From the NCBI GenBank assembly GCA_019634625.1, contig JAHCBA010000014.1, positions 62,001-126,000 on the forward strand: a stretch of DNA of 64,000 nucleotides, written 5' to 3'. Source of the stretch: Verrucomicrobiia bacterium. GTDB taxonomy: Bacteria > Verrucomicrobiota > Verrucomicrobiia > Limisphaerales > CAIMTB01. Position numbers and translations under genes: made by a program. Shown here piece by piece: positions 313-46,431 of this stretch. The first letter of the stretch is position 1. Every line of letters starts with the position of its first letter. Below the pieces are notes generated by a model. It did not search any database. It was given only the letters and a program-made list of their open reading frames with translations, and was not told where the DNA came from.

Positions 313-3300
313 TCAATACCGCGTGATGACCTCGTGCAGGTTCAGGACGACGCGCGCCGCGTTCGACCACACCGCCAGTTCCACCGCCGGGAGGTCGTAG
401 GCCACCGGGGCGTTCCCCACCCGGATCAACGCCGCCGCCTGGTCCGGCCGGTCCTGATACAGCACCCGCTGCCGTTCCACGAACCGCAGCAGCGACTCCC
501 GCTCCGCCGGCCTCGGGTCACGCAACAGCGCCAGCCGGAACAACCTCTCCACCCGCGCCCCATCCCCGCGGGCATCCCGCATCAACCCCTCCGCCAGCAC
601 CCGGCCCGCCTCCACAAAGGTCGGATCGTTCAACAGCGTCAGCGCCTGCTGCGGCGTGTTCGAGGGCAGCCGCGAGGCCACACATTCCTCCCGCGACTGC
701 GCATCGAAGTTGGCCAGCATCGGATGCAGGAACGTCCGCTGCCAGTGCATGTACAAGCCACGCCGGTACTGCCGCTCGTCGAGGTCCGCCCGGTAATCGC
801 GATCGGGAAACTGAAGGTTCACGTAATACGCGGGGGGCTGGTACGGAAACACACTTGGCCCCCCCACCTCCCGCTCCAACAGCCCGGCAATGGCCAGCGC
901 GTTGTCCCGCACCAGCTCCGCCTCCAGCCTCCGTGGCGACTGGTGCGACAACCACCGGTTGTCCGGGTCCCGTTCCCGTGCAGCCTCGGACGGCTCGGAG
1001 GCCTGGCGGTACGTCGCCGAGGTCACCAGCAGCCGCACCATGTGCCGCATGTCCCACGCCGCCGGAGCCGGTCCTTCCGCCACCGGACTGGCCACCATGG
1101 TCGGTTCCATGAACTCCGCCGCCAGCCAGTCCAGCAGTTCCGGATGACTCGGCCATTCCCCCTGCAATCCCAGGTCTTCGATCCGCGCCGAAATCCCCGC
1201 CCCAAAGAACTGCGCCCAAAGCCGGTTCACGAAGTTCCGCGCCGTAAGCGGGTTCTCCCGCGAGGTCAGCCACGACGCCAGATCCAGCCGGCTCAACCGG
1301 CCCGCCGGCTCCTCCCCGTTCCCCGTTCCCCCCATCCCCGGCGCCAACACCTTTGGCGGCGCCGGACCCACCACCTCCCCGCTTTCGTCCATCCAGTTCC
1401 CCCGGGGCAACTCCCGCGTCACCAGGGCGTTCGTGGACACCGTGACCTGTGTCCAGGCCCTGCCCTCCCGGCACTCGCGGATCTCCATGTCCAGCCCGCG
1501 CAGTCCGGCCAGCACCTCCCCGTCCCATGCCGTGCTCCGATGAAAGGCAGCCGGCACGCCACGGTCGGCTCCTTCTCCAAAGAACGGGGCCGCAACGTCC
1601 TCCACCCGGCTCACCCAATGCCCCGGTTCCAGCGCCAGCGGCGACACCGAGATCCGCACCCGGCGCGCCACGTTCCCCGGAATCGTCACCGACAACACAT
1701 CCCCCCGGGCTGCGCGCCACGGACGTTCCACCAGCGCGATCGCCGACACGCCGCGCCCCTCCGCCACCGCGCCCGCCGGCAACCGCCAGCCCCGGTGCAC
1801 CCCCAGAATGTCATGCCCGTTGGCGTATCGCGGCTCTTTCTCCACCGCATCCGCAAACACAAACCGCAACGCCTCCTCCGTCGCCTCCCCCGCCCGCCGC
1901 CAGCGTGCCGCCCATTGCACCGTCGCCGTGCGCCGTCCCCCCCGCAGCAATCCCTCGCCCTCCACCTGCGGCAGCAACTCCAACCGCAATGCCGCCACCC
2001 ACCCCGCCGGCAATTCGAACTCGAACCGGTCCTGCGTGACCCGCGATCCGCGAAAGGACACCGACCCGTCGTCCCGCCATTCCAACTCCTCCGCGGCCAC
2101 CCGGTTGGTGCCCGCCATCGACGTCACCTCCCGCGGCCCCAGCACCCGCCACCCATCCGGATGCACCGACAGGAAATCGCGCACCCCCATGCGCCACTCC
2201 CGAAGAAGCGTCCGTGTTTCCTCCGACCCCATCGCCCGTTCTCCCGCGGCACGCTCCAGGTCCGACGCCCGCGCCTGCAACCGGTCGATCCGCCGCAACA
2301 AGGCCGGACTTTCCACCTCGATCTCCGGCGGGAACGGGTGGTCGTTGCTCCACCCGCCCAGATCCGGGTTCGGCGTGTACACGTAGTCCTGGTACACCCC
2401 CCACTGCTGGACGTCCGCGAAGAAGGCCGAGAAGGCATAGAAGTCCCGCAGCGTGAACGGATCGTACTTGTGATCGTGGCATTCCGCGCAGGCCAGCGTC
2501 GCCCCCAGCCAGGCCGTCGAGACCGTGCGCACCCGGTCCGCCTGGTACTTCGCCAGGTACTCCTTCGGCTGCGCCCCCCCCTCGCGCGTCATCATGTTGA
2601 GCCGGTTGAACCCCGTGGCCACCTGCTGCGCCACCGTCGGCTCGGGCAGGAGATCCCCCGCCAACTGGTCCCTCGTGAACTGGTCGAACGGCAGATTCCT
2701 ATTGAACGCCTCAATCACCCAGTCCCGGTAGGGAAAGATCCGCTGGTTCTGGTCCCCATGGTACCCGACCGTGTCCGCAAACCGTACCGCATCCAGCCAC
2801 GGAATCGCCTGCCGCTCCCCGTAATGCGGCGAGGCCAGCAACCGCTCCACCTGCCGCTCGTAGGCGTGCGGGTCCGTGTCCCGCTCGAACGCCGCCGCCT
2901 CCTCCGGCGTCGGGGGCAGCCCCACCAGGTCCAGACTCAACCGCCTCAGCAGCGTCCGCCGGTCCGCCTCCCGGGCCGGCTCCAACCCCTCCTGCACCAG
3001 ACGCTCCCGCACCAACGCATCCACCGGGTGCCCCGTCGCCCACCCCGCCGGAAGCGCGTCCGGAACCGGCGGCCGTTCCACCGTCATGAACGACCAGTGC
3101 GGCTCATACTCCCCGCCCTCCGCCACCCAACGCCGCAACAACCCGATCTGCTCCGCCGTCAGCGGCTTGTGCACCGACGCCGGCGGCATCAATTCCTCCG
3201 GATCCTCCGCGGTCAGACGCCGCACCATCTCGCTCCCGTCCGGATCGCCCGGCACCAGCACCCCGCTCGACACCGCCGCCTCCCGCTCGTCCACACGCAA

Positions 3301-3480
3301 CCGCGCCTTCCGCTGGGCCGCATCCGGCCCATGACACTGGAAGCAGTGATCCGACAGAATCGGGCGGATGTCTCGGTTGTAGCGCAGCGGCTCCGCGCCC
3401 TCCGCCCATCCCCCCGCCACCAGGAACGCCAGCGCCAGGGCCCCCGGCACCCACCGCGGCTTCATGGACCTTCGCATCAT
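313..3480 (-). CDS. PSCyt1 / DUF1549 / DUF1553 secreted protein
   Basis: A large exported protein of the planctomycete-type cytochrome c family. A signal peptide (about residues 1-29) precedes a PSCyt1 c-type heme motif CFQCH at 46-50. The DUF1549 (PSCyt2) region runs from about 145 to 350 and holds a second CxxCH, CAECH at 331-335. The C-terminal third is DUF1553 (PSD1), with the typical motifs NRLWAQFFG, TYRQASE and NTPQQALTLLNDPTF. The middle (about 430-660) is not a LamG domain as in the other two family members of this window; it looks like a beta-rich insert of unknown type. Alternative ATG starts lie at 3477 and 3465. The biochemical role of the family is not established; genes of this kind usually pair with DUF1501, but no partner is visible here (ribD follows). 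Confidence 0.93.
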   Translation of the reverse strand: MMRRSMKPRWVPGALALAFLVAGGWAEGAEPLRYNRDIRPILSDHCFQCHGPDAAQRKARLRVDEREAAVSSGVLVPGDPDGSEMVRRLTAEDPEELMPPASVHKPLTAEQIGLLRRWVAEGGEYEPHWSFMTVERPPVPDALPAGWATGHPVDALVRERLVQEGLEPAREADRRTLLRRLSLDLVGLPPTPEEAAAFERDTDPHAYERQVERLLASPHYGERQAIPWLDAVRFADTVGYHGDQNQRIFPYRDWVIEAFNRNLPFDQFTRDQLAGDLLPEPTVAQQVATGFNRLNMMTREGGAQPKEYLAKYQADRVRTVSTAWLGATLACAECHDHKYDPFTLRDFYAFSAFFADVQQWGVYQDYVYTPNPDLGGWSNDHPFPPEIEVESPALLRRIDRLQARASDLERAAGERAMGSEETRTLLREWRMGVRDFLSVHPDGWRVLGPREVTSMAGTNRVAAEELEWRDDGSVSFRGSRVTQDRFEFELPAGWVAALRLELLPQVEGEGLLRGGRRTATVQWAARWRRAGEATEEALRFVFADAVEKEPRYANGHDILGVHRGWRLPAGAVAEGRGVSAIALVERPWRAARGDVLSVTIPGNVARRVRISVSPLALEPGHWVSRVEDVAAPFFGEGADRGVPAAFHRSTAWDGEVLAGLRGLDMEIRECREGRAWTQVTVSTNALVTRELPRGNWMDESGEVVGPAPPKVLAPGMGGTGNGEEPAGRLSRLDLASWLTSRENPLTARNFVNRLWAQFFGAGISARIEDLGLQGEWPSHPELLDWLAAEFMEPTMVASPVAEGPAPAAWDMRHMVRLLVTSATYRQASEPSEAARERDPDNRWLSHQSPRRLEAELVRDNALAIAGLLEREVGGPSVFPYQPPAYYVNLQFPDRDYRADLDERQYRRGLYMHWQRTFLHPMLANFDAQSREECVASRLPSNTPQQALTLLNDPTFVEAGRVLAEGLMRDARGDGARVERLFRLALLRDPRPAERESLLRFVERQRVLYQDRPDQAAALIRVGNAPVAYDLPAVELAVWSNAARVVLNLHEVITRY

Positions 3481-5178: not shown

Positions 5179-7464
5179 TCAATCCCCTTCCCGCCGGATC
5201 AGGTAGTACGGCGTCCGATCACGCGATCCGTCGATCCGGAACGCGCCGTCGGTCACCGGCAGCGTCCTGCCCGTCCTCCGACCTCCGTGGTCCAGCAACT
5301 CGACCACGAACACGCCCGGCCGCCGCACTTGCAGGTCGGCCACCACGGCTTCCAGCATCACCGGCGGGCCACCGCGCTCCACGAGGACCGAATCGTCGTC
5401 CACCCGCATCCCGGTGTTGCGTGCCCTGGCCATCGCCACCAGCAGCCAGTGCCGTCCCGAAGCCAGATCCGCATCCCGGTCCCGCGCCGTGACATACACC
5501 GCTCCGAACCGGCTCCGAAGGATGATCGCCACCTCCCCAAGTGGCGCGGGACGATCCATCGCAAACCCAACCACCGCCTGGGTGGCGGACGTGTCGATCG
5601 TGAAGTGCCCGTCGTGCCGCGTGGCCCCCTCCCTCCAGCGTAGTTGGCCCGTGGACGCAACATGCACGTCGCCTTCCAGGTACGGACCGAGATCGAACGT
5701 CGGCGTGTCACGTTGGGTCTCGACGAACTCCACCTCGCACCGGGCCACGGCAAGCGCCCGCGAGGGAACCCGGTCGCTGTCGAACGTGCGCACGTCATAG
5801 TCCGGACTCCCCACCGTGTCCTCGAACCCGAGCCGCCCGGCCAGCAGGCCGGGGAGGTGCACGTGTCGGACGGCCCGGACCTGCGACCGCGCGACGTCCC
5901 CGCGCAGCACCTGTCGGGCCACTGCCGGAAAGATTCCCAGCACCTGCGGAGCCGTGGCGTCCCACCGGTCCCGGCCGATCCGCCCGCTGAACCTCCCGTC
6001 GTCCTGGTTCTGGAACAGGTAGCTCACGTCCCAGCCCTGAAGTCCCATGCCGTAGGCGCCCACAATGGCCGGCCCCTCCACGCCCCATTCGTTGGGAAAC
6101 ACGTGGATCCACTCCGACAACATGAACGGCCGGCCCGCCACCTGTTCCATGCCGGTGCTGAGCACGCCCGAGCCGGGAACGCGGACCATCGAGGCGTTGT
6201 CGATTCGGGGCGGTTCGCCACCCCCGAAATAGTTATGGCGGTCCACGGGGCCCACGACCTGGTCGGTGTGCAGATTGGCGTAATGGCTGAACATCCGCCC
6301 GGCGTGCCAGTTGGAGGCAATGATCTCGCCCGCGTAGCCCGTCCCCCGAATGCCCGCCACGATCCGCTCGTAGGCCTCCCCCTGGAGCGTGTGGAGAAAC
6401 TCCAGGGTATCCAGCAGCCGCTGCCGCCGGAACTGCTGGGAACCGGACAACTGCTGCGGATCCCAGAACCACGGATTGCCCAGCGGCAGGACATTGCGTC
6501 GGTCAAGGTGTTCCGCCTCCCCATCCGGGGGAGCCACCTCATTCGAGAAACTGCCCAGCGCCCGGCGCCCCCAGGCCTCCACCAACCCGTCCTGCCCCCC
6601 GTACCTTCCGCGCAACCAGTCGCTGAACTGCCCGGCCACCCTCCGCCGCAACGTCGCACTCCGGCGCAGCGGTTCCATCGACGTGTAAAACAGAATGCTC
6701 GCCTCGTTCACGATCTCCACAAACGCCACCGCCGGGTCCTCGGCGTAGGTCAGTCCCGAGTACGGGTTCCGATGGCGGAGGATGGCCCGCAGTTGCTCGA
6801 TGGTCGCCTCCTGAAGTTCCCGAGAGTAGTACAGCGTGCTGTTCCCGCCCCCCACCCGCGCGTCCGGCCCCTCCAGCGCCCCGAACTCCTCCGCGTACGG
6901 CACCCGCGCCAGATCGCCCCGACCCACCCGGATCGTCCCGAAGGCCTGCGACAGCTTCAGGTAGATGCCCGCCTTCCGGAACTGTGCGTTCTGATAGTCG
7001 AACCGATCGAGCGCTTCGGGATCGAACCCCACGGCGCTGTCTTCCACCTGGATCCCTGCCCAACCCGGCCCGTCGGCCCACTTGTGCAGCCGCACCGAAT
7101 TGATCCCGAACCGCCGATACAACGCCGCGCGCCGGTCGGCCACCTCCCGGGACGGCGCAGCTCCTGACCGGTAGCAGAGGTTCAATCCCCAGAGCCGGAT
7201 CGGTTGACCGTCGTAATACAGGTCCCCACCGCGCGCCTCGATCCGCCCATGCCGCCCCGCCGGCGCCTCCAGCCAGTCGCCCATATCCAACTCGCACGCC
7301 CCCTCCCCGTCAGCCTCAGGCGTGAACGCATACCACCGCTCCATGTCCGCCTCTCCCCGCATCCGGTCCGGGACCCTCTCCGCAGACTCCTCGCCCCACG
7401 CCATTCCACTCCAGCCGCCCAACGCCAACACCACGAGGAATCCCCTCACACACCATGGTCTCAT
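5179..7464 (-). CDS. Secreted clan-A-like glycoside hydrolase
   Basis: An exported protein of about 761 residues. I chose ATG 7464, which gives the signal peptide MRPWCVRGFLVVLALGGWSG; ATG 7476 adds four residues, and the frame stays open to 7626. After a short beta domain it contains a TIM-barrel region: IRLWGLNLCYRSGAAPS, INSVRLHKWADGPGW, then VAFVEIVNEASILFY, where the Asn-Glu is a good candidate acid/base, and RPFMLSEWIHVFPNEWG, where the Glu of SEW is a candidate nucleophile. This order is typical of GH5/GH42-like clan A enzymes. The C-terminal 200 residues look like a beta-sandwich. The substrate cannot be told. Downstream it converges with the BNR-type gene. Confidence 0.8.
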   Translation of the reverse strand: MRPWCVRGFLVVLALGGWSGMAWGEESAERVPDRMRGEADMERWYAFTPEADGEGACELDMGDWLEAPAGRHGRIEARGGDLYYDGQPIRLWGLNLCYRSGAAPSREVADRRAALYRRFGINSVRLHKWADGPGWAGIQVEDSAVGFDPEALDRFDYQNAQFRKAGIYLKLSQAFGTIRVGRGDLARVPYAEEFGALEGPDARVGGGNSTLYYSRELQEATIEQLRAILRHRNPYSGLTYAEDPAVAFVEIVNEASILFYTSMEPLRRSATLRRRVAGQFSDWLRGRYGGQDGLVEAWGRRALGSFSNEVAPPDGEAEHLDRRNVLPLGNPWFWDPQQLSGSQQFRRQRLLDTLEFLHTLQGEAYERIVAGIRGTGYAGEIIASNWHAGRMFSHYANLHTDQVVGPVDRHNYFGGGEPPRIDNASMVRVPGSGVLSTGMEQVAGRPFMLSEWIHVFPNEWGVEGPAIVGAYGMGLQGWDVSYLFQNQDDGRFSGRIGRDRWDATAPQVLGIFPAVARQVLRGDVARSQVRAVRHVHLPGLLAGRLGFEDTVGSPDYDVRTFDSDRVPSRALAVARCEVEFVETQRDTPTFDLGPYLEGDVHVASTGQLRWREGATRHDGHFTIDTSATQAVVGFAMDRPAPLGEVAIILRSRFGAVYVTARDRDADLASGRHWLLVAMARARNTGMRVDDDSVLVERGGPPVMLEAVVADLQVRRPGVFVVELLDHGGRRTGRTLPVTDGAFRIDGSRDRTPYYLIRREGD

Positions 7465-8053
7465 CGCCCGGATCATGCCCAGCCAGGGCAGAATGGCCAA
7501 CCCACTGTCCCTCAGGATATCGAATAATAGGTCAGGCCTCTTTTGCTCCGCACCGCGCCCGAACACGCCTCCCCCACCCACAAACCCTATCAGGTAGCTG
7601 AGGATGACTTCGTCGTTCGAAGTCAACAGTACATGGCCTGTCTTGTTATTTTAGACCAAGATCAAAGGTATTGTGCCCGGCTTTATATTTGGATTGTTGA
7701 CCGAGCGACCTGGCGCCCTACCGGACCAATCTCGGATCGATTCCCCCTCTCCTCTCGATGATATCGCCTCGCCGCTCCTAACCCGCCCGTACGCCGCCAA
7801 CCTTGCCCGCCCTGTAGGCGGAACCGTCGATCGTCTGGATGGGCCCACTCCCGGAACGCGTCGCCCACCTGGTCTTCCCCCAGAATGCGAACACGGACGC
7901 CGAATCCCTTCCCGGCGGTCGCAACCCGCCCGCCACGCCTCACTTCACCCCCCTAACCCCTACCCTGCTGCGAAGCGCTCATTCCGGGTTGGATGTCGTT
8001 GTTGCGGGGTTCCGCCGAGTTCAGCAGGGCGTCGCGCAGTTGCTCCGCCAGCA
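7465..8053. other. Gene-poor spacer with an AT-rich repeat
   Basis: About 590 bp between the glycosidase-like start and the degenerate prepilin fragment. It includes the unusually AT-rich repeat at 7622-7701, described separately. Downstream of that I see only short frames without coding character. The minus-strand stretch 7956-8050 can be read as MMLAEQLRDALLNSAEP, in a different frame from the pilin-like fragment, and may be its frameshifted tail. Confidence 0.5.
7622..7701. repeat. AT-rich GTCAA...CCTGYCTT repeat (locus 1)
   Basis: The block opens with GTCAACA (7622-7628) and closes with its reverse complement TGTTGAC (7695-7701). Inside is GGCCTGTCTTGTTATTTTAG, which matches the units at 19003-19135 and 27765-27832. 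It is far richer in A+T than its surroundings. It may be a REP/BIME-like sequence related to the RAYT transposase at 26.7 kb; that link is an inference from similarity to the block upstream of that gene. Confidence 0.6.
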
Positions 8054-8275
8054 TCATGCCGACAACCCGTCCGCCCGCACCACAACCACCCAGTTCGGGT
8101 AACGGTCGCCGTGCCCATCCGCATGAACCCGAATTGCCACACCCACCCGCCCCAACCCGTCCTGGCATCGCACCCGGATCGACTTCGCCCGGGCGTTCGC
8201 CAGCGCCGGTAACGTGACAATGCCGAGCACGATCAACCCGACGACCGGCGCCATCATGTCGATCCGCGCGAACCC
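8054..8275 (-). pseudogene. Degenerate prepilin-like fragment
   Basis: The minus-strand frame reads GFARIDMMAPVVGLIVLGIV, then LPALANARAKSIRVRCQDGL and VHADGHGDRYPNWVV. This follows the plan of the prepilin-like proteins elsewhere in the window: cleavage site G^F with an acidic residue at +5 (Asp here), a hydrophobic helix ending in LPAL, then a K/R-rich and C-x-x-x-L-x-x-x-G region. It stops after about 74 residues, whereas intact relatives have 220-325. Similarity seems to continue in another minus frame downstream (VVGMMLAEQLRDALL), which suggests a frameshift. No convincing start precedes it; the frame opens at ATG 8365. It could instead be a short functional family member. Confidence 0.45.
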
Positions 8276-8455
8276 TTGATCCGACCGGTTCCCAGCCCCC
8301 TCCTTCCTGCACACGCCACCCGAGCCCAACCCCAGCCTCGGCCCCGCCGCGGACCGGCGCCGCACGATCCCGCCCCCGGCCGGAAAGGATGGACCCCGTG
8401 TCTCGAATGCGCGCCGACGCCATTGGCCGGGGTCCCCCTGTCAAGCGATCCACCC

Positions 8456-9244
8456 TCACACGACTTCCGGTGCCTGCCCGGATTCCACCCCGGCCCGCCA
8501 TTCCCGCACGGCGTCCCGCATCAGCGCCGCCGCCTCCAACCGTCGCCGCACAAACCTGGGAGTGAACCACGGGAAGGTCCCCACCAGGTCGTGGGTCACC
8601 AGGATCTGCCCGTCGCAATCCGGGCCCGAACCGATCCCGATCGTCGGGATCTTCAACCCCCCCGTGAGTTCTCCGGCCACCGCAGGCACCACCAACTCGA
8701 GAACCACGGCGAACGCCCCGGTTTCCTCCAGGGCCCGGGCGTCCTCCATCAACGCCCGGCGCTGGACCTCGTCCCGCCCCTTGATCCGGTACCCGCCCTC
8801 TTCCAGCACATGCTGCGGAAGCATCCCCAGATGCCCCATGAACGGAATGCCGTCCTCCACGATCGCCCGCACCGACGGCAGAATCATGCACCCACCCTCC
8901 GCCTTCACCGCCTCCGCGCCGGCAGCCATTAATCGTCGCGCGCTCACCACCGCCCGGTCCGGCTCGTCGTAACTGCCGTATGGCAGATCCCCAACCAGCA
9001 GTGCCCTCGGTCGCGCCCGCGCCGCCGCCCGCACGTGATGCTCCATCTCGTCCAGCGTCACGTGGGTCGTGTCCGGATACCCCAGCACCACCATCCCCAA
9101 CGAATCCCCCACCAGCAGCACCGGCACCCCCGCCTCATCCAGCATCCGGGTCATCGGATAGTCATAGGCCGTCAACGCCGCAATCCGCCGTCCCTCGGCC
9201 TTCCACCGCGGCAGCATCCCCGGAACGATCTTGGTCGCCTCCAC
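8456..9244 (-). CDS. panB: 3-methyl-2-oxobutanoate hydroxymethyltransferase PanB
   Basis: PanB transfers a hydroxymethyl group from 5,10-methylenetetrahydrofolate to 2-oxoisovalerate, giving ketopantoate, the first step of pantothenate synthesis in the cytoplasm. Visible family motifs are ALTAYDYPMTRMLDEAGV, VLLVGDSLGMVVLGYPDTTH (metal-binding Asp), GDLPYGSY, GHLGMLPQHV, VLELVVP (the Glu matches the proposed catalytic Glu) and IGIGSGPDCDGQILV. With a GTG start at 9244 (VEATKIVPGM) the protein has 262 residues, the usual length. The frame is open upstream to 9430 but that sequence has no family character. ATG 9217 is an alternative. It is divergent from the five-gene membrane module, with only about 100 bp between. 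Confidence 0.95.
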   Translation of the reverse strand: MEATKIVPGMLPRWKAEGRRIAALTAYDYPMTRMLDEAGVPVLLVGDSLGMVVLGYPDTTHVTLDEMEHHVRAAARARPRALLVGDLPYGSYDEPDRAVVSARRLMAAGAEAVKAEGGCMILPSVRAIVEDGIPFMGHLGMLPQHVLEEGGYRIKGRDEVQRRALMEDARALEETGAFAVVLELVVPAVAGELTGGLKIPTIGIGSGPDCDGQILVTHDLVGTFPWFTPRFVRRRLEAAALMRDAVREWRAGVESGQAPEVV

Positions 9245-9343
9245 CCCCGCAACGCTGCCGCCCCCTGCGAGACCGGAACAAGCATAATACCGACCTTCGT
9301 CGGATGGCGCCGTTCCCGGCCGCTCACCCACACTGCCTTCCTC

Positions 9344-9886
9344 ATGACCCGCACAATGACCTGGCTGCTCGGACCCGAATCGGTCGCCGCCGCCGTTGGC
9401 GCCGCGGTCCTCTGGTACTGTGCCCGTCACGCCTCGGGAACCGGACGGGATGTGGAACTGATGGAGCGTCTCGTCGTCCTGCTTCCCCTCCTGGTCGTGG
9501 TGCCGGTCTTCCTGACCATCCTCGCACCCGGGGCGACGGCCACCTGGACCTGGCTCACCCGGGCCCTGGTGGTGTCGTTCGTCGTGGCGGGCTTCCTCAC
9601 CCTGCGCGTCGTCGAGGGTTTTGGCTCGGGCGCCAAAGGTCAGGACGCCGCCATGATCGTCTCCCTATGTCTTACCAGCATGGTCGCCGGGGCGGGCTCG
9701 GCCATCGCCGGGGCCATGGTCCTGTCACAACGGGACGCCGCCTTTGCCGCCTGGTTCAAAGCCCGTCCTGTCCTGGCCTCGCTGATAACGCTCGCGGCCT
9801 CCGTCCCGATCGGCATCGCCCTGCTCTTCGTCCTCTGCGTCGTCGGCGGCGTCCTCCTCGGCGCCTGGTCCGCATTCCGCCGATGA
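9344..9886 (+). CDS. Multi-pass membrane protein, gene 1 of an uncharacterised five-gene module
   Basis: A 180-residue integral membrane protein with about five hydrophobic segments: residues 10-25, 45-65, 72-92, 105-128 and 142-172. I chose ATG 9344 (MTRTMTWLLG); ATG 9356 is a close alternative. No family is recognised and no catalytic motif is visible. It opens a run of five + strand genes with gaps of 48, 28, 10 and 19 bp, which suggests one transcript starting in the 100-bp gap shared with panB. It could be a structural or assembly partner of the larger membrane proteins downstream, but nothing in the sequence proves this. Confidence 0.75.
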   Translation: MTRTMTWLLGPESVAAAVGAAVLWYCARHASGTGRDVELMERLVVLLPLLVVVPVFLTILAPGATATWTWLTRALVVSFVVAGFLTLRVVEGFGSGAKGQDAAMIVSLCLTSMVAGAGSAIAGAMVLSQRDAAFAAWFKARPVLASLITLAASVPIGIALLFVLCVVGGVLLGAWSAFRR

Positions 9887-9934
9887 CCCGGTCGCTCCCT
9901 CCCATCCCTCTCCAACCCACCCAGCCTGATTCCC

Positions 9935-11341
9935 ATGGAACGTTTCCTGCACTCCCTTCGTGCCTACCCGGCTCTCGCCGGCATCACCACCTTCGTCCTG
10001 ATCTCCGTGACCCTCGCCGTGTTGCTGGGGACACTCATGCACCGATCCGGGGCTTCCCTGAAACCCCTGGTCTTCTTCTTCGGATTCCTTGCCATCGTGG
10101 CCGTTCCCCAAGGCACGGTGCATCTCCTCGATGTCCTCGCCCATCGCCGCGCGGTTCGCCTGCACGCCGAACAGCCCCCTCCATCGGACACCGGATCGCC
10201 GTCACAGCCGGCATCGCCTGCCCAACCTGCCCCCGGCCTGAAGCCGGTCTCCTGGGACCTCATCTTCGGCCCCGGCGCGGATCCTTCCCTGATCACCGAC
10301 GCCAAGCGGGGCCTCGACGCCATCGTGGGTGCCGCTACCGAAGCAAAACTCTCCTTCAATCGCTCCGGGGAATCCGCCCTCGCCGCCCGCTTCAACACGC
10401 CGCTCGAAGCCCTGCAGGCTCTCGACCGCTACGGAACCTTCTTCCAGTTCGCCCAGGCGTCCGGCAGCGACGACTGGGGCTGGACCGCCCGTCGCCACGG
10501 CGGCCAGGGCGAATGGAACCACCTGGTCGCCGCCGGCAACGAACTCTATGCCTGGAGCGGCGCCACCCGCGAAGGCGTCGAGGCGCGCCGCATTCAGGCG
10601 CTCGGCCCCATCCCCGCCGCCACCGCCGCCTCCGGCGCCACCGCCACCGCCGCCACCGCCGCCACCGCCGCCTCCGGCGCCTCCCCCGCCGGCACCAGCC
10701 CCGGGCGTCAATCCGTCTCCCATCGCCTCGTCGCCAACACCCCCGTCATGGCCTGTTTCGTCGGCATCAATCTCGTCTTCGCCGTGGGCTGGTTCTTCAA
10801 GGGCTCCGCCTGGGCCACACGTCAGTCCCCGCCCTCCAACACCCCGGCCCTCGATGCCCAATCCCTTCGCGAACGCCTCCTCGCCATCAACCACGGAGAG
10901 ACTCCCGTCACCGTCCGAACCGCCGACGACGGACGGGCCATCGAAATCACCTGGCGCTACGCCGACGCCCGCTGGCTCGACCTCATGCGCGTCCACCGGG
11001 TCCGCCGCACCCACAAGCTTGTCCTCCTCCCCGACGAATCGTCCCGCACGGTCCGCGTTCGCGAATTCTGGAGTGCCTTCGACGCCTCGGCCGGTCTCGA
11101 CGGACTCCGCCTCCACTGGGAGGCCGCAACCGGCATGCAGTTCTTTCAGTTCGAACACCGCCGTGTCTTCGGCGCGCAACTCGATGCCGACGGAAGGCCC
11201 ACCGGCGAACTCAGCGCCGCCTACACCTTCAACCTCCAGGAACTCAAGGGTCCCGTCGCCGACGTCGTCACCGCAGCCGGCTGGACCTGGCAGCCGGTCC
11301 TGTGGAACGCCCCCGCCGGCTTCCGCTGGCTGACCGAATGA
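9935..11341 (+). CDS. Membrane protein with Ala-rich linker, gene 2 of the five-gene module
   Basis: A 468-residue protein. Two transmembrane helices lie near the N-terminus (about 15-37 and 45-66), followed by a Pro/Gln/Ser linker and a globular region (FNTPLEALQALDRYGTFFQF, GDDWGWTARRHGGQ-like). A low-complexity Ala/Thr/Ser/Gly stretch at about 228-255 comes from GCC/ACC codon runs. A third helix sits at about 268-290 (VMACFVGINLVFAVGWFF). The C-terminal domain holds FFQFEHRRVFGAQLDADGRP and YTFNLQELKGPVADVV. From memory, this C-terminal style occurs in uncharacterised proteobacterial membrane proteins; I cannot verify that here. No enzyme motif is evident. Confidence 0.75.
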   Translation: MERFLHSLRAYPALAGITTFVLISVTLAVLLGTLMHRSGASLKPLVFFFGFLAIVAVPQGTVHLLDVLAHRRAVRLHAEQPPPSDTGSPSQPASPAQPAPGLKPVSWDLIFGPGADPSLITDAKRGLDAIVGAATEAKLSFNRSGESALAARFNTPLEALQALDRYGTFFQFAQASGSDDWGWTARRHGGQGEWNHLVAAGNELYAWSGATREGVEARRIQALGPIPAATAASGATATAATAATAASGASPAGTSPGRQSVSHRLVANTPVMACFVGINLVFAVGWFFKGSAWATRQSPPSNTPALDAQSLRERLLAINHGETPVTVRTADDGRAIEITWRYADARWLDLMRVHRVRRTHKLVLLPDESSRTVRVREFWSAFDASAGLDGLRLHWEAATGMQFFQFEHRRVFGAQLDADGRPTGELSAAYTFNLQELKGPVADVVTAAGWTWQPVLWNAPAGFRWLTE

Positions 11342-11369
11342 CCCCCTCCCATTCCCGGAATCCACCTCC

Positions 11370-12365
11370 ATGTCGCTCAAGGCGCTCACGGTCCTCAGTT
11401 GGTCCCTCTGGGGCGTTCTCGCCCTCGGCGTGGCCGTCGTGTCGGCGATGCTCCTGACCGAACGCCGCCACAGCCCCGAACTCGGCCGCGAAGCCTCCGT
11501 CGGCCTCGTCGTCATCCTCGTCGCCCTCCTCGCTGCGGCCGGGCTCATCCTCCACCTCCTCGCCCGCAAACAGTCCTTCGCCGGGCTGGTCATCGTCTCC
11601 CTCTTCTTCGCGTCACCCCTCGTCCTCATCCTCGCGCGCCAGGCAAAGTTCAGCCTCGTCACCTGGCTCGCCCGACGCGAATTCGCCCGCATCGGCGCCC
11701 ATTCCGACCCGGTGGCCGCCCCGATGGCCCGTGCCATCCTTGCCGATGACGCCCCTGCCCTGGCGCTCCTGCTTCGATCCCATTCCCCGCCCCCCGCCGT
11801 CCGCGACCGGGCCGGGCTCGACCTCGTCGCCCTGGCCTGTGTCGCCATGGTCCAGTCGAAGGCCAGCGCCGAACCCCTGCGCATCCTCCTCGATGCCGGG
11901 GCCGACCCCGCCGCCTCCCGCCTGCCCGAGGACCTTCCCCTGGTCGGCTTCCTTGTCCTCAACGCCGACCGCGCGCCCCACGCCGCCGATGGCCTGACCC
12001 TCCTGCTCGCGCACGGTCTCGACCCCAATACCCCGCTGCCGCGTTCCGGCGATCTCCCCCTCGCCCTCGCCGCAAGGCACCTGGATCTGGTCCGCATCCT
12101 CCTCGACCACGGCGCGGACCCGGACCGCCTCGATGGCAACGGGGACAGCCTGGTGGTTCGCTTCATCGGAACCCAGGCCTGGGACGCCGCCCTGCTCCTG
12201 ATCGAACGGGGCGCCGCCCTCGACCACGTTTCCTCGGCGGGCACGTCCGTGGACTACTACCTCCGTGAATGGCGCAACGGCGTCCATGGCGAACCCTCTC
12301 CCGAATGGGACCGCGTCCGGGCCGCCATCGACCGACGCCGCCAGCCCGTGCCACCCTCACCCTGA
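11370..12365 (+). CDS. Membrane-anchored ankyrin-repeat protein, gene 3 of the module
   Basis: A 331-residue protein with three N-terminal hydrophobic segments (about 8-30, 43-65 and 70-90) followed by an ankyrin-like solenoid. Repeat signatures are PLRILLDAGADPAAS, LTLLLAHGLDPNTPLP, LPLALAARHLDLVRILLDHG, ADPDRLDGNGDSLVVRFIG and AALLLIERGAALD. Ankyrin repeats mediate protein-protein binding; here they would project from the membrane, probably into the cytoplasm. It sits 28 bp after gene 2 and 10 bp before gene 4. The binding partner is unknown. Confidence 0.85.
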   Translation: MSLKALTVLSWSLWGVLALGVAVVSAMLLTERRHSPELGREASVGLVVILVALLAAAGLILHLLARKQSFAGLVIVSLFFASPLVLILARQAKFSLVTWLARREFARIGAHSDPVAAPMARAILADDAPALALLLRSHSPPPAVRDRAGLDLVALACVAMVQSKASAEPLRILLDAGADPAASRLPEDLPLVGFLVLNADRAPHAADGLTLLLAHGLDPNTPLPRSGDLPLALAARHLDLVRILLDHGADPDRLDGNGDSLVVRFIGTQAWDAALLLIERGAALDHVSSAGTSVDYYLREWRNGVHGEPSPEWDRVRAAIDRRRQPVPPSP

Positions 12366-12375
12366 TTCCCATCCC

Positions 12376-13692
12376 ATGCACTGGTTCCTCTACATCCTCC
12401 TCGCCCTCCCCGTCGCCGCCCTCGGACTCCTCTGCGGCGGTTACATCGGAGACCATTGCGTCCGCTGGTACCGCATCTCCAGCTTCGAGGGAGGCTCCGG
12501 GTACTTCGTGGTCGGCCTCGCCCTTCTCGGCGGCGTCGTCGGTCTCGTCACCGCCCTGGTGACCGCCGGCGCCCTGGCCCCGCAACAGGGTCCCGGCTAC
12601 CTCAAGGCCTTCGGCACCTCCACCGGCATCGTCCTCGCCATGGCCTGTCTCGCCCTCCTGTCCTGCTGGCTGCTCGCCGACATCCCCCCGCGCCTCCACG
12701 GCCGTGAACTGACGATCGAGGTCGAAGTCCGCCTCCCGGCCGATGCCCCTTCGCCCCGCGACGCCCAGGGCGAATCCCGCATCGAACTCCACTCCGTGGC
12801 CGGCCGCACCTCACGCGCCTCGCAGAGGGGAACCCTCCGCCCCAACGAGGCCCGCCTCGAAAACGGACGTTGGATCGTCCCCGGAGACGTCTTCCTCTTC
12901 ACCATGCGCGGACACCGTTCCCTGTCCTTCCGCCTCGATGGCGGGGAAATCACCGGATTCCTCGCGCCCATCCCAGCCCGGCCCGGACCCGACTTCCTCG
13001 CCTGGAGCGACTGGTACCCGCGCCCACCCGCCCCCAATCCTCCCTGGCCGGACTCGCGACTCTCCTACCGCTTCCGACTGCGGACGATCGAACCGCCGCC
13101 TCCCCCTCCGTCCGCGGAGGAGTCTCGAGCCCGTGAAGAGGCCGAAGCCCAGGCCCGCTTCGATGCCATTCCCGCCGACGCCCCCTTCGATGTCTGGCTC
13201 GCCTATTCCCGCCACAACGCCACCGACCTCCGCGCCACCATCGCCACCGAACGCCTCCTCGCCCGGCCCGATCTCGCCTCTGAACTCGCCCGGCGCATGC
13301 AGCTCAGCGACATCGAACCCGCCACCGACGCCCTTCGCTTCGTCCGCCGCATCCCCCATCCCTCGCCGGATCTGGTGGATCCTCTCCGCGCTGTCGCCCG
13401 GACCCTCGGGGAACGTCTCCGCGAATTCAACGTGACCCCGGTCGAGGTCGATCCCTCCTACGAGAAGGCCGCGGACATCTCCCGCCTCTTCAGTGCCTGG
13501 TTCCCGGCCGTCTCCCATCTGCGCGAACGCCTCGGCACCGATTTCACCTCCGAACTCGCCACGATCCTCACCCTGGCCCGCCAGCGGCCCGACAGCCAGG
13601 CCCTCCGCGCCGATGTCGTGCGCGTCGCAAGTCATTACCTCCACGAATGGGCCGGCGTCGCACCCCTCCCCACCGATCCCAAACCCCGCTGA
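12376..13692 (+). CDS. Membrane protein with large soluble C-terminal region, gene 4 of the module
   Basis: A 438-residue protein. ATG 12376 (MHWFLYILLALPVAALG) was chosen because it opens a hydrophobic N-terminus 10 bp after the ankyrin gene. Three transmembrane helices are visible (about 1-25, 38-60 and 82-100). A beta-rich domain follows (LTIEVEVRLP, GDVFLFTMRGHRSLSFRLDG, WSDWYPRPPAPNPPW), then a Pro-rich linker, an Ala/Glu helix and an all-alpha region (FDVWLAYSRHNATDLRATIA, LASELARRMQLSDIEPATDA). The last part looks like a degenerate helical-repeat domain. No known family is recognised. The soluble part may work with gene 5, which is also helical. Confidence 0.75.
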   Translation: MHWFLYILLALPVAALGLLCGGYIGDHCVRWYRISSFEGGSGYFVVGLALLGGVVGLVTALVTAGALAPQQGPGYLKAFGTSTGIVLAMACLALLSCWLLADIPPRLHGRELTIEVEVRLPADAPSPRDAQGESRIELHSVAGRTSRASQRGTLRPNEARLENGRWIVPGDVFLFTMRGHRSLSFRLDGGEITGFLAPIPARPGPDFLAWSDWYPRPPAPNPPWPDSRLSYRFRLRTIEPPPPPPSAEESRAREEAEAQARFDAIPADAPFDVWLAYSRHNATDLRATIATERLLARPDLASELARRMQLSDIEPATDALRFVRRIPHPSPDLVDPLRAVARTLGERLREFNVTPVEVDPSYEKAADISRLFSAWFPAVSHLRERLGTDFTSELATILTLARQRPDSQALRADVVRVASHYLHEWAGVAPLPTDPKPR

Positions 13693-13711
13693 ACCACCGC
13701 CCCGCCCGCCC

Positions 13712-14764
13712 ATGTCCGCGTCCCCCGCCGACGACCCGCGCCTCGCCGCCTTCCCACCCGCGCTTCGAGCCCTGCTCGATGCCGAACTGGCCGCCGGCAA
13801 CCGGATCATCGAGGTCGCCAGTTGCTTCCCCGCCCCGCCCGCCGGCGCCTACGCCAAACTCGCCGCCCCCGTCACCACCCGGCCCCGTGCCTCGGACGAA
13901 TCCCTCCGCTTCCACGACCACAATTCCTCCTGCTACGCCGGCGAATTCACCGACGCCAGGCGGTTCCATTTCGTCCTCGAACCCCCTCGTCCGCCCGAAC
14001 CGGAGGTGGACATGGACGCCCTCAGGGCCGCCCGCGAGGCCTCCTACGCCGCCGCCAACGCCCGCGCCCTCACCCCCACCGCACCCCCCACGCCACCCCC
14101 GCCCCGATCCAGTCGCGCCCACCCGGTCCCTCCCCGCCCCCCCGCCAGTCTCGTGGACCGCTTCAAGGCCAGCATGGTCATGGACTATGAGAAATGGCAC
14201 GACGGCACCGGCTATGACCTCGCCCTGATTCGTCAGGCCACCGACGCCGAACGCGCCCTCATCGAGGAACTTCTGGTCCACCGCTCGCCCCGCAACTGGC
14301 GCGACGTCGAGGCCCTCTCCGCCCTCGGCCACGATCGTCCCCGGGTCCGCGCCGCCCTGCTGGACGCCTTCGCCGACCGGGATGCCGAAGTCCGCCTCGC
14401 CGTCCATCGGCACGCCCCCGGACTCCTCACCGAGCAACGCCGCATCGCCTCCCTGGTCGCCGCGTTGGAGCACGCCGACTTCTACGCCGGCCTCACTCAG
14501 GCGCTCATGGAGGTCCGCACCTTCCACCCCCCGCCGGTGATCGAGGCCCTCTGGCGCGGCCTGGAAACCCGCGCCCCCGGCATCGCAGTCCACTTCGCCG
14601 CCCTGCTCTGCTACCTGCACGGCCAGGCCTCTTCCCCCTTCGACATGAGCCAGCGCCCCTACTTCCTCAGCTTCCATACCGACCGCCCGGAAGATCGCCT
14701 GCCGAAGATCCGCGAATTGCGCGACCGTCTCGCACCGTTCCCCGTCCGCCCCCACGAGACCTGA
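13712..14764 (+). CDS. HEAT-repeat-like soluble protein, gene 5 of the module
   Basis: A 350-residue protein without signal peptide or transmembrane segments. The N-terminal part (about 1-85) is followed by a Pro-rich linker (TPTAPPTPPPPRSS). The core begins at MDYEKWHDGTGYDLALIRQA and continues in HEAT-like helical pairs: LVHRSPRNWRDVEALSALG, HDRPRVRAALLDAFADRDAE, VRLAVHRHAPGL, LTQALMEVRTFHPPPVIEAL. HEAT-type repeats act as scaffolds. It is the last gene of the run, 19 bp after gene 4 and convergent with the methyltransferase. The pairing of HEAT and ankyrin scaffolds with three membrane proteins is the distinctive trait of this operon. No function can be assigned. Confidence 0.8.
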   Translation: MSASPADDPRLAAFPPALRALLDAELAAGNRIIEVASCFPAPPAGAYAKLAAPVTTRPRASDESLRFHDHNSSCYAGEFTDARRFHFVLEPPRPPEPEVDMDALRAAREASYAAANARALTPTAPPTPPPPRSSRAHPVPPRPPASLVDRFKASMVMDYEKWHDGTGYDLALIRQATDAERALIEELLVHRSPRNWRDVEALSALGHDRPRVRAALLDAFADRDAEVRLAVHRHAPGLLTEQRRIASLVAALEHADFYAGLTQALMEVRTFHPPPVIEALWRGLETRAPGIAVHFAALLCYLHGQASSPFDMSQRPYFLSFHTDRPEDRLPKIRELRDRLAPFPVRPHET

Positions 14765-21988: not shown

Positions 21989-24900
21989 GTGAATACCGTC
22001 CGTCGTCTCCCCGCCCTCGCCCTCGTCTTCCTTCACCTTGCCCAGGCCCGCGTCGATGCCGAGGTCGTGGACTTCAATTTCCACATCCTCCCCCTCCTCT
22101 CCGATCGCTGCTTCGCCTGCCACGGTCCCGACGATCAGGCCCGCAAGGGACGCCTCGACCTCCACACCCGCGAAGGCGCCCTCCGCGGCGGACGCTCCCG
22201 CGAACCCGCCATTGTCCCCGGCAATCCGGATGCCTCCGAACTCCTCGCCCGCATCCTTGCCTCCGATCCCAACGACGTCATGCCTCCCCCGGAGGCCAAA
22301 CTTCCGCCGTTCACCCCCGAAGAAACCGACCGGCTCCGGCGGTGGATCGAACAGGGAGCGGAGTTCAAGGAACACTGGGCCTTCCTGCCCATCGTTCCCC
22401 CCGCCATCCCCGCCCTCGACGATTCCACCCCGCCCGCGGTCAACGACATCGACCGCTTCGTCCGCACACGCCACCACCAGGAGGGACTCCCCTCCCAACC
22501 CGAAGCCGCCCCGGAAACCCTCCTCCGCCGCGTCACCCTCGATCTCATCGGTCTTCCCCCCACGCCGGACGACATCGCAGCCTTCCTCGCCGACCCCTCG
22601 CCCGCCGCCTACGAGGCCGCCGTCGATCGCCTCCTCGCTTCCCCTCACTACGGGGAACGCATGACCCAGGAATGGCTCGACCTCGCCCGCTACGCCGATA
22701 CCTACGGCTACCAGTCCGATGTGGACCATGACCTCTCCCCGTGGCGCGACTGGGTCCTTCGTGCCTTCAACGAGAACCTTCCCTGGGACGACTTCATCAC
22801 CTGGCAGCTCGCCGGCGACCTCCTCGACCAACCCTCCCCCGACCAGATCCTCGCCACCGCCTTCAACCGCCTTCATCGCCAGACCAACGAGGGCGGCAGC
22901 ATCGAGGAGGAGTTCCGCGCCGAGTACGTCGCCGACCGTGTCCACACCATGGGCACCGCCTTCCTCGGCCTCACCCTCGAATGCGCCCGCTGCCATGACC
23001 ACAAGTACGACCCCATCTCCCAGCGCGATTACTACCGCCTCTTCGCCTTCTTCAATTCCATCGACGAGTCCGGCCTGTACTCCCACTTCACCCGCGCCAC
23101 CCCCACTCCCGTCATGCGCCTCTGGGAAGGCGACACCGAACGGCGGCACCGCGAACTCCTCGAAGCCCGCCTCGCCCTCGAGGACGCCTTGACCGCCCGC
23201 CGCGCCACCGCCCGCCCCCGCTTCGAACGCTGGCTCGCCCACACCCGCTCCTCCGAACCGCCTCCCGTCCCCGATCCCGTCGCCCATCTCCCGTTCGAGA
23301 CGATCGAGAATCATCGCACCCCGGACTCCCTCTCCACCAACCTCGTCCGCCTCCACGACAACCCCGAACTCGTCCCCGGCCGCGTCGGACAGGCGATGAA
23401 GTTCAGCGGCGACAACTCCGCCGTCCTCCCCCGTGCCGGCCGATTCGGCCGCACCGATCCCTTCACCTTCTCCCTCTGGCTCCAGCCCGCCGACACCGCT
23501 CCCCGCGCCGTGGTCTTCCATGCCTCCCGCTCCTGGACCGATTCCGGCAGCCGCGGCTATGAACTCGTCCTCGAACACGGTCATCCCTTCTTCGGCCTCA
23601 TTCACTTCTGGCCCGGCAACGCCGCCGCCGTCCGCACCCGCGACCCTCTCCCTCCCGGTGTCTGGTCCCATCTCACCGTCACCTACGACGGCTCCGGCCG
23701 CGCCGCCGGCATCCGCATCTACCGCGACGGCCTCCCCCTCCCCCTCGATATCGTCCGGGACCACCTCGCCAAGGACATCCAGCATCGCGCCGAATGGGGC
23801 GATTCCGATGTCGGCGGCGTCCCCCTCACCCTCGCCGGCCGCTTCCGCGACAATGGCTTCAAGGACGGCCTCATCGACGAGTTCCGCGTCTTCAATGCCG
23901 AACTCACCCCCGTCGAGGTCGCCCTCCATGCCGGTCTCCCCCATCCCCTCCCCAGCCTCCCCGAAACGGCCTGGCTCGCCCACTTCCTCGCCCGTCACGA
24001 CGACGCCTCCCTCGCCCTCCGAGCCCGCTGGCACGAAGTCCTCGTCGCCGAAAACAACCTCGTCACCCCCGTCCGCGAAATCATGGTGATGCAGGACCTC
24101 CCGGAACCGCGCCCCACCTTCGTCCTCCAGCGCGGCGCCTACGACAGCCCCGGCGATGCCGTCCAGCCCGGCACCCCCGATCGCCTCATGCCCATGGATC
24201 CAGGCCTGCCCCGCAACCGCCTCGGCCTCGCCCGCTGGATCACCGACCCCGCCCATCCCCTCACCGCCCGCGTCGCCGTCAATCGCATCTGGAAACACCA
24301 CTTCGGCCAGGGCCTCGTCGGCACCACATGGGACTTCGGCGCCCAGGGTGAACTGCCCTCCCACCCCGAACTCCTCGACTGGCTCGCCCACCGCTTCGTG
24401 AGTTCCGGCTGGGATCGCAAAGCCCTCCATCGCCTCATCGTCACCTCCGCCACCTATCGCCAGGCCTCCTCCGCCCCCCCCAACCTCCTTGCCCGCGACC
24501 CCGAGAACCGCCTGCTCGCCCGCGGCCCCCGCCATCGCCTCGACGCCGAACAGATCCGCGACGGCGCCCTCGCCGCCAGCGGCCTCCTCGTCCCCACGCT
24601 CGGAGGCCCCGCCGTCAAACCCTACCAACCTCCCGGCGTCTGGGAGGATGCCGGCACCGGCAAGTCCTACACCCAGGACAAGGGTGACAAACTCTACCGC
24701 CGCAGCCTCTACACCTTCTGGCGCCGCACCGCCCCGCCGCCCAGCATGCTCACCTTCGACGCCACCTCCCGCGAGGTCTGCACATCCAAACGCGACGCCA
24801 CCACCACCCCCCTCCAGTCCCTCGTCCTCCTCAACGACACCCAGTTCGTCGAAGCCGCCCGCGTCCTTGCCGAACGCCTTCTCACCGATCACCCCCACGA

Positions 24901-25153
24901 TCCCGCCGCCCGTGCCCAAGACGCCTTCCTTCGCCTCGTCGGCCGCGCCCCGGATGACCTCGAAACCGACCTCCTCGCCCTCCTTTACACCGAACAACGC
25001 GCCCATTTCCGTGCCCATCCCGACGACGCCGAAGCCTTCGTCGCCATCGGCGAACGGCCACGCGACCCATCCCTCCCAGCCCCCGAACTGGCCGCCACCA
25101 CCGTCCTCACCAGCGCCGTGATGAACCACGACGAATTCGTCATGAAGCGCTAG
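21989..25153 (+). CDS. PSCyt1 / DUF1549 / LamG / DUF1553 secreted protein
   Basis: A 1054-residue exported protein with a GTG start (MNTVRRLPALALVFLHLAQA). Heme motif CFACH lies at 41-45 (PSCyt1), DUF1549 covers about 150-350 with CARCH at 332-336, and a LamG/concanavalin-like domain occupies about 460-630 (FTFSLWLQPADTAPRAVVFH, WSHLTVTYDGSGRAAGIRIY, GLIDEFRVFNAELTPVEV). DUF1553 fills the C-terminus (NRIWKHHFGQGLVGT, TYRQASS, TPLQSLVLLNDTQFVEAA). The insertion of LamG suggests carbohydrate binding. It is followed 35 bp later by a DUF1501 gene, the usual pair. The pair is often found among polysaccharide-use genes, but its reaction is not known. Confidence 0.95.
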   Translation: MNTVRRLPALALVFLHLAQARVDAEVVDFNFHILPLLSDRCFACHGPDDQARKGRLDLHTREGALRGGRSREPAIVPGNPDASELLARILASDPNDVMPPPEAKLPPFTPEETDRLRRWIEQGAEFKEHWAFLPIVPPAIPALDDSTPPAVNDIDRFVRTRHHQEGLPSQPEAAPETLLRRVTLDLIGLPPTPDDIAAFLADPSPAAYEAAVDRLLASPHYGERMTQEWLDLARYADTYGYQSDVDHDLSPWRDWVLRAFNENLPWDDFITWQLAGDLLDQPSPDQILATAFNRLHRQTNEGGSIEEEFRAEYVADRVHTMGTAFLGLTLECARCHDHKYDPISQRDYYRLFAFFNSIDESGLYSHFTRATPTPVMRLWEGDTERRHRELLEARLALEDALTARRATARPRFERWLAHTRSSEPPPVPDPVAHLPFETIENHRTPDSLSTNLVRLHDNPELVPGRVGQAMKFSGDNSAVLPRAGRFGRTDPFTFSLWLQPADTAPRAVVFHASRSWTDSGSRGYELVLEHGHPFFGLIHFWPGNAAAVRTRDPLPPGVWSHLTVTYDGSGRAAGIRIYRDGLPLPLDIVRDHLAKDIQHRAEWGDSDVGGVPLTLAGRFRDNGFKDGLIDEFRVFNAELTPVEVALHAGLPHPLPSLPETAWLAHFLARHDDASLALRARWHEVLVAENNLVTPVREIMVMQDLPEPRPTFVLQRGAYDSPGDAVQPGTPDRLMPMDPGLPRNRLGLARWITDPAHPLTARVAVNRIWKHHFGQGLVGTTWDFGAQGELPSHPELLDWLAHRFVSSGWDRKALHRLIVTSATYRQASSAPPNLLARDPENRLLARGPRHRLDAEQIRDGALAASGLLVPTLGGPAVKPYQPPGVWEDAGTGKSYTQDKGDKLYRRSLYTFWRRTAPPPSMLTFDATSREVCTSKRDATTTPLQSLVLLNDTQFVEAARVLAERLLTDHPHDPAARAQDAFLRLVGRAPDDLETDLLALLYTEQRAHFRAHPDDAEAFVAIGERPRDPSLPAPELAATTVLTSAVMNHDEFVMKR

Positions 25154-45636: not shown

Positions 45637-46428
45637 TCACCCCTCCCGATCCCCGGACAGCACCGCCTCGATGCCCGCCCGCAATTCCGCCTGCACCGCA
45701 TCCACCGGCCGATCCCCGTCCACCATCGTGAACCCGTACTCCACCTGCAGATCCCGAAACGCCACCACCAGCCGCTTCTGGTACTCGATGAAGCTGTCGA
45801 ACATGTCGCTCGAAAAACCCAGATCCATCCCGCTCTCCCAGTAGTCCAGCGTGAAGTCCTTCGCGAAATTCCGCTCGATCAGGTTCTCCGGCGACACCTG
45901 CAGGTAGAACACCGCATCCGGCACCAGCGCCATCCCGTACAACTTCCGCAGCCACTCCCGGTCGATGCCCCGCACCAGGTCGCGCGCCATCAGCGTGTAG
46001 ATGTACCGGTCCGCCAGCACGATGCATCCCGCCCGCAATCCCGGCAGAATCACATTGTCGAGCTGGTCCGCAAAGTCGGTCGCATAAAACAGGCTGAGGG
46101 TCGTCCGGCTCAGCGTGTTCCGGTGCTTCGCCTCGTCCAGTTCCTCGCTCACCAGCGTCGATCGCTTCAAACCCACCTGGCTCGTCGCATGCCCCGTCCC
46201 CTCCAGCCAGTCCACCAGCCGCGCAATCTGCGTCGAACGCCCCGACCCATCCGCCCCCTCGATGACGATCAGCCGCCCGCCCAGATCCTCCGCCCGCACC
46301 CCGGGAATCCCATGCCCGTAAAACCGCTTCGCCGACGGCTTCAGCACCAGCACCTCCGGCGGCAGATCCCGCGGCGCCGGCGGACGCGAGCGGTTGCGGG
46401 AACGCGAGGGTCGGGGTGGCCGGTTCAT
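45637..46428 (-). CDS. Thymidylate-kinase-like protein with altered Walker A (Arg for Lys)
   Basis: A 263-residue P-loop protein of the dTMP-kinase family. It has a 50-residue basic N-terminal extension, then LIVIEGADGSGRSTQIARLV. The Walker A Lys (G-x-x-x-x-G-K-S/T) is replaced by Arg; the codon is CGT on the minus strand. Other family motifs are present: TLSLFYATDFADQLDNV, IVLADRYIYTLMARDLVRG (D-R-Y), PDAVFYLQVSPENLIERN. It follows a second family member by 3 bp in the same operon. The change and the extension suggest a specialised, perhaps regulatory or weakly active, paralogue rather than the housekeeping Tmk. Confidence 0.85.
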   Translation of the reverse strand: MNRPPRPSRSRNRSRPPAPRDLPPEVLVLKPSAKRFYGHGIPGVRAEDLGGRLIVIEGADGSGRSTQIARLVDWLEGTGHATSQVGLKRSTLVSEELDEAKHRNTLSRTTLSLFYATDFADQLDNVILPGLRAGCIVLADRYIYTLMARDLVRGIDREWLRKLYGMALVPDAVFYLQVSPENLIERNFAKDFTLDYWESGMDLGFSSDMFDSFIEYQKRLVVAFRDLQVEYGFTMVDGDRPVDAVQAELRAGIEAVLSGDREG

Positions 46429-46431
46429 GGT

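Follow-up and report, generated by a model that had tools for sequence, protein, structure and literature searches.

The five-gene operon analysed here is composed, as judged from sequence comparison, of two separately conserved gene pairs and one local ankyrin gene. The first pair is g1-g2; the second is g4-g5, in which g5 may be replaced by a gene carrying a domain designated Z; the ankyrin gene is g3. The operon lies within a stretch of 64,000 nucleotides (hereafter the window) on contig 14 of a 6.7 Mb genome assembled in 88 contigs. The two pairs are well supported by comparison with related loci (designated below by L numbers, and their genomes by G numbers). Both are found again in other families and orders, at 30-45% identity. 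The gene set is new only in the sense that it has no match to a known kind of system.

The five open reading frames occupy positions 9344-14764 of the plus strand (Table 1) and are separated by gaps of 48, 28, 10 and 19 bp, coordinates and gaps that the first-pass annotation had given exactly. The start of g1 is best set at 9344, because its homologues align from this position. Upstream, the panB gene on the minus strand starts near 9244, about 100 bp from g1; downstream, a methyltransferase gene ends at 14795, about 30 bp from g5. Since panB is divergent and the methyltransferase gene convergent, the unit stands apart from its neighbours at either end. The genes in the flanks (panB, methyltransferase, glycosyltransferases) were named by eye. 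Scans of the operon region revealed no sigma-70 promoter match and only background-level terminator matches. Elsewhere the window contains PSD-type cytochrome genes, DUF1501-type genes and prepilin-like proteins, a content that we take to be verrucomicrobial. It also carries two tandem minus-strand genes of thymidylate-kinase-type appearance (45637-47079) and three large proteins whose N-termini carry CxxCHGPD-type motifs (313-3480, 21989-25153 and 53516-56842), each apparently the product of a planctomycete/verrucomicrobial cytochrome-type gene as judged by eye.

Table 1. Features of the operon region (positions in the window)
Feature	Position	Strand	Length	Remark
Divergent intergenic region panB (-) / g1	9245-9343			Presumed promoter region
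g1	9344-9886	+	180 aa	
g2	9935-11341	+	468 aa	
g3	11370-12365	+	331 aa	
g4	12376-13692	+	438 aa	
g5	13712-14764	+	350 aa	

Homologues of g1, g2, g4 and g5 with 38-64% identity keep the reading frame and have dN lower than dS. By the Nei-Gojobori method, dN/dS was about 0.25-0.5 overall, with dS of 1.0 to 1.8; it was about 0.3 for g1 against L034 and g2 against L033, and 0.34-0.5 for g4 and g5 against L006 and for g1 against L033. These values indicate that all four are true genes under purifying selection.

Among the five proteins, the sole Pfam model above its cut-off was ankyrin, in g3, and no NCBIfam model passed its cut-off for any of them; partner families from the related loci likewise passed no Pfam or NCBIfam model. 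A search of solved structures returned no match for g2 and no meaningful match for g4. AlphaFold2 modelling of g2 and g5 from single sequences gave poor models (pLDDT 46.9 and 52.7), and the fold search performed with them gave weak helical-repeat matches, with nothing below E 0.001. No enzyme motif was found in the operon, no relatives of the genes were found in viral contig and phage collections, and plasmid searches with g5, g1 and the L033 partner gave no match. The first-pass annotation had regarded the layout as one that could not be named; the curated libraries give it no name either, and a matching gene system was not found in the literature search.

The first pair comprises g1, a membrane protein with an N-terminal GPE motif, and g2, in which two N-terminal helices are followed by a domain D1, a third helix and a C-terminal domain D2 (about residues 300-455). 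The product of g1 had been described as a five-helix protein; hydropathy predicts five helices in its homologues but four in the window copy. The three helices originally ascribed to g2 were recovered by hydropathy at residues 13-31, 39-57 and 270-288, and its reported Ala-rich linker is real in the window protein but missing from the homologues. The pair recurs at five loci in three families (the window, L021, L023, L033 and L034). In L006, g1 stands two genes before g4, and in L035, a locus from a third family, another small membrane protein occupies the place of g1, with g2 overlapping g4 by 4 bp. The g2 search of 315 genomes of the class gave loci in several families; full-length homologues were found at six loci beyond the window, one of them disrupted. 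The homologue in L022 (G292, about 7328-8552) contains an in-frame stop or a change of frame and has a decaying look. Weak g2 matches in G248, G883 and G119 were dismissed as noise.

Several further proteins accompany g1 or g1-g2. The 427-aa protein of L006 combines an L033-type domain with a CDCD...CxRCG domain; the former is also encoded 3' of g1-g2 in L033 (52% over 89 residues), and two copies of the latter precede g1-g2 in L021. In L021 an opposite-strand gene for an ankyrin protein of about 400 aa, unlike g3, and one for a 123-aa protein also lie beside the pair (8668-10271). A 521-528-aa protein without a family is encoded at L034:5313-6899, its gene sharing 4 bp with the start of g1; taken by eye as MOG1/PsbP-like (as the 521-aa form), it gained no support from profile comparison. 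An ATSGGEG motif common to the partners in L033 and L034 did not reach significance; scores as high came from 130 of 2000 shuffles.

Domain D2 is also present alone, on plasmids of Rhizobium, Ensifer, Phyllobacterium, Pararhizobium and Streptomyces. These rhizobial and Streptomyces 'hypothetical proteins' consist of a domain of about 170 aa homologous to g2 residues 300-455, and the rhizobial copies share 28-32% identity with g2. Unlike g2, the solo proteins have no membrane part, no g1 partner and other neighbours. On three Streptomyces plasmids (L068, L069 and L070) the D2 homologue directly follows a conserved protein about 165 aa long. This protein matches LpqN below the cut-off (E 0.07), and on two of the three plasmids it is itself preceded by a long protein, which in L069 passes the PPE-family cut-off. 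The Streptomyces context thus hints at secreted-protein biology, without carry-over to the window.

In the second pair, g4 is predicted by hydropathy to contain three helices, in agreement with the first-pass annotation, followed by a domain with a WSDW motif and a C-terminal domain. Its partner g5, which had been described as a soluble HEAT-like protein, is without predicted membrane helices by hydropathy and consists of an N-terminal domain, g5N (about residues 1-110), and a helical, HEAT-like C-terminal part. The HEAT nature of the C-terminal part is only suggestive: no Pfam HEAT model matched, matches to alphaRep, a designed protein, were weak (E 0.012), and a run of helices at 147-303 was seen in a low-confidence AlphaFold2 model.

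A protein with the g4 C-terminal domain is encoded beside a g5N-HEAT, g5N-Z or Z gene at seven loci in four families. The g5N-HEAT fusion occurs in the window, L006 and L020 and the g5N-Z fusion in L049 and L050, and Z alone directly follows g4 in L052 and L053; in L054 Z and g4 are separated by about 1.9 kb. In L020 and L050, g5 is accompanied by a distantly related membrane protein that has the C-terminal domain of g4 (hhalign probability 77.5%, E 1.9e-5; for L050 also hmmsearch 5e-5); for the corresponding protein of L049 the relation is weak. The WSDW domain is present or absent depending on the locus (L053, L054). Two congeners of the window's host carry g4, within the operon in L006 and alone in L007; g4 also stands alone in L051. 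The only g4 match in the genome contig search, L002, proved to be a chance motif in a very large unrelated ORF and was dropped. Two Z-domain fragments, apparently a remnant, were seen in a congener (L059; G004 contig 592, 6859-7067). In L052 (7319-14857) g4 and Z are followed by genes for an ADP-ribosylglycohydrolase, a PD-(D/E)XK nuclease-like protein and a PcfJ-like protein, possibly forming an island.

The remaining gene, g3, encodes three helices by hydropathy followed by ankyrin repeats (Pfam Ank_4, 35.1 bits against a cut-off of 22.7), in agreement with the membrane anchor and the ankyrin repeats first proposed for it. No counterpart was found in the related loci, and g3 appears from these comparisons to be a local gene outside both conserved pairs. 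The two pairs are brought together in one operon in the window and in the congener locus L006, where the order is g1, the 427-aa protein, g4 and g5, without g2 and g3. Composition thus differs within a single genus, to which the window, L006, L034 and L007 all belong.

To describe the distribution, g2, g4 and g5 were each searched in 315 genomes of the class, and the genomes listed agree among the three samples. Counting robust matches only, g2 was found in 7 genomes, g4 in 7, and g5 or g5N in 4. Overlaps amounted to four genomes for g2-g4 (p 3e-6), four for g2-g5 (p 9e-8) and three for g4-g5 (p 3e-5), and to p values of 0.002, 0.0002 and 0.03, respectively, when the window's genus is left out; all these values ignore phylogeny and genome size and have few genomes behind them. 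In G002, G778 and G145 members of the set are split between contigs or separated by about 0.8 Mb, and the association is therefore not merely physical. The first-pass annotation had named co-occurrence in unrelated phyla as support for a system; the co-occurrence found here holds only within one class. It had also likened g2, g4 and g5 to proteobacterial proteins, which is correct for the C-terminal domain of g2 only: a search of 398 sampled genomes from a second phylum (Pseudomonadota by its one named locus) gave no g5, and the sole cross-phylum match of g4 is from Gemmatimonadota. A protein encoded on plasmid 2 of Gemmatirosa kalamazoonensis (NZ_CP007130) resembles g4 in its membrane and WSDW parts, with about 46% identity over 44% of g4, but has another C-terminal half and another downstream gene, whose product gained no support for a relation when compared with g5.

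The reading preferred here, to which slightly less than an even chance is given, is that the five genes specify a membrane-anchored scaffold, accessory and modular in nature, built from two units that are conserved independently. Unit A would consist of the polytopic membrane protein g1 and g2, a membrane protein with two soluble domains, and Unit B of the three-helix membrane protein g4 with its soluble C-terminal domain and the soluble partner g5, whose C-terminal part would be exchangeable, being HEAT-like in g5 and Z elsewhere. The membrane proteins would tether the soluble partners at the inner membrane, and the repeat surfaces of g5 (HEAT-like) and g3 (ankyrin) may bind a client protein or one another. 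As no catalytic motif is present, the scaffold would act through binding and sequestering. According to topology derived from hydropathy, the charge pattern near the helices of g3 and g4 would allow the soluble parts to be cytoplasmic, in which case g5, the ankyrin repeats and the g4 C-terminal domain would share one side of the membrane; the pattern of g2 is ambiguous. The comparisons show the genes themselves, the pairs, co-occurrence at genome level, exchange of partners and a patchy distribution; a physical complex, a cytoplasmic orientation and a binding role of the products are inferred. The membrane complex suggested by the first-pass annotation fits the conserved pairs, but not as a fixed five-gene system, because the pairs are combined differently across genomes. 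Since some members are solitary (g4 in L007 and L051), the units need not cooperate. The patchy distribution, the swapping of genes, the disrupted g2 in G292 and the fragmented Z in G004 suggest a facultative role, most likely a conflict (immunity-like) or stress function and not housekeeping.

The nearest described layout is that of polyimmunity loci (Zhang et al. 2012, PMC3482391), same-strand arrays of unrelated immunity proteins, each against a different competitor toxin; that the window operon is of this type is considered unlikely. Such loci, including Imm-Ank and Imm-HEAT types, have one orientation, small gaps, strain-variable content and recombinases nearby (PMC3482391). The window operon is similarly short and same-strand, encodes ankyrin and HEAT-like proteins and no enzyme, contains five tandem genes with small gaps where four or more are expected, and varies in content between close relatives of one genus (the window, L006 and L034). 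In addition, an ADP-ribosylglycohydrolase, an enzyme class named as an immunity protein (PMC3482391), is encoded near the L052 locus, and three very large RHS/YD-repeat proteins are encoded in the window's genome (G000). The latter, however, are on contigs 2, 7 and 12 and none is on the window's contig, and extended polyimmunity loci have been reported only from certain proteobacteria, bacteroidetes, firmicutes and actinobacteria (PMC3482391). Neither Pfam nor NCBIfam gave a match to an immunity family (Imm, SUKH, SuFu), the generic ankyrin repeats being the only match, and no toxin was recognised beside about 16 loci by eye and in partial Pfam scans, from which toxins with unknown domains would escape. 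Interchangeable immunity genes should also lack fixed neighbours, whereas g1-g2 and g4-g5/Z are fixed across families. The Imm-Ank and Imm-HEAT proteins have their repeat classes in common with g3 and g5 but, unlike them, g3 is membrane-anchored, g5 has an N-terminal domain of its own and is paired with a membrane protein, and neither matches an immunity model. Because no immunity family and no linked toxin were found and the pairs are fixed, membership of the polyimmunity loci is not claimed. The toxin/immunity remnant earlier put forward likewise has neither an adjacent toxin nor a known immunity family in its favour, and no large secreted CdiA or outer-membrane CdiB of a contact-dependent inhibition system (CdiB/CdiA/CdiI) is among the flanking genes as named by eye.

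It is equally improbable that there is no system at all, that is, that independently useful accessory genes are co-transcribed and share neighbours by descent of gene blocks. The solitary g4 of L007, the free-standing D2 of rhizobia and Streptomyces, and the lack of conservation of g3 would agree with this, and the first-pass annotation had stated that homologues found singly with unrelated neighbours would speak against a system, which was seen in part, for the L007 g4 and the rhizobial solo D2. Against it, both pairings recur in different families and orders at the identities given above, in some cases with genes overlapping by 4 bp (L035), and co-occurrence extends to genomes in which the genes are unlinked. 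A role as accessory factors of protein export or effector loading, in which the D2 domain of g2 would serve secreted proteins as adaptor or chaperone, is still less probable: it draws on the LpqN-like protein before the Streptomyces D2 and the PPE-family protein of L069, but no such context surrounds the solo copies of rhizobia, the protein encoded ahead of g1-g2 in L034 is similar by eye without support from profile comparison, and the window operon contains no secretion gene. Least probable is an anti-phage defence module. The accessory genes are patchy, swapped and decaying, and L052 lies near the PD-(D/E)XK nuclease gene, which has weak PADLOC matches. However, PADLOC gave no match for g1, g2, g4 or g5 and matched g3 only through its ankyrin repeats, the operon has no nuclease, NTPase or nucleotide-signalling enzyme, and no enrichment near defence genes is apparent at loci other than L052.

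Returning to the modular scaffold, a more specific and rather doubtful form of it may be outlined, in which interchangeable soluble partners (g5N-HEAT, g5N-Z and Z) would dock on g4-type anchors and act together with g1-g2, making up an undescribed modular membrane recognition system for conflict or stress in one bacterial class. Conflict systems often show such an exchange of partners on a fixed membrane anchor. At least six families without a passing Pfam or NCBIfam model (g1, g2, g4, g5N-HEAT, Z and the CDCD/CxRCG protein) are linked in a network whose members are shuffled, and the g1-g2 and g4-g5 pairs turn scattered 'hypothetical proteins' into testable partnerships.
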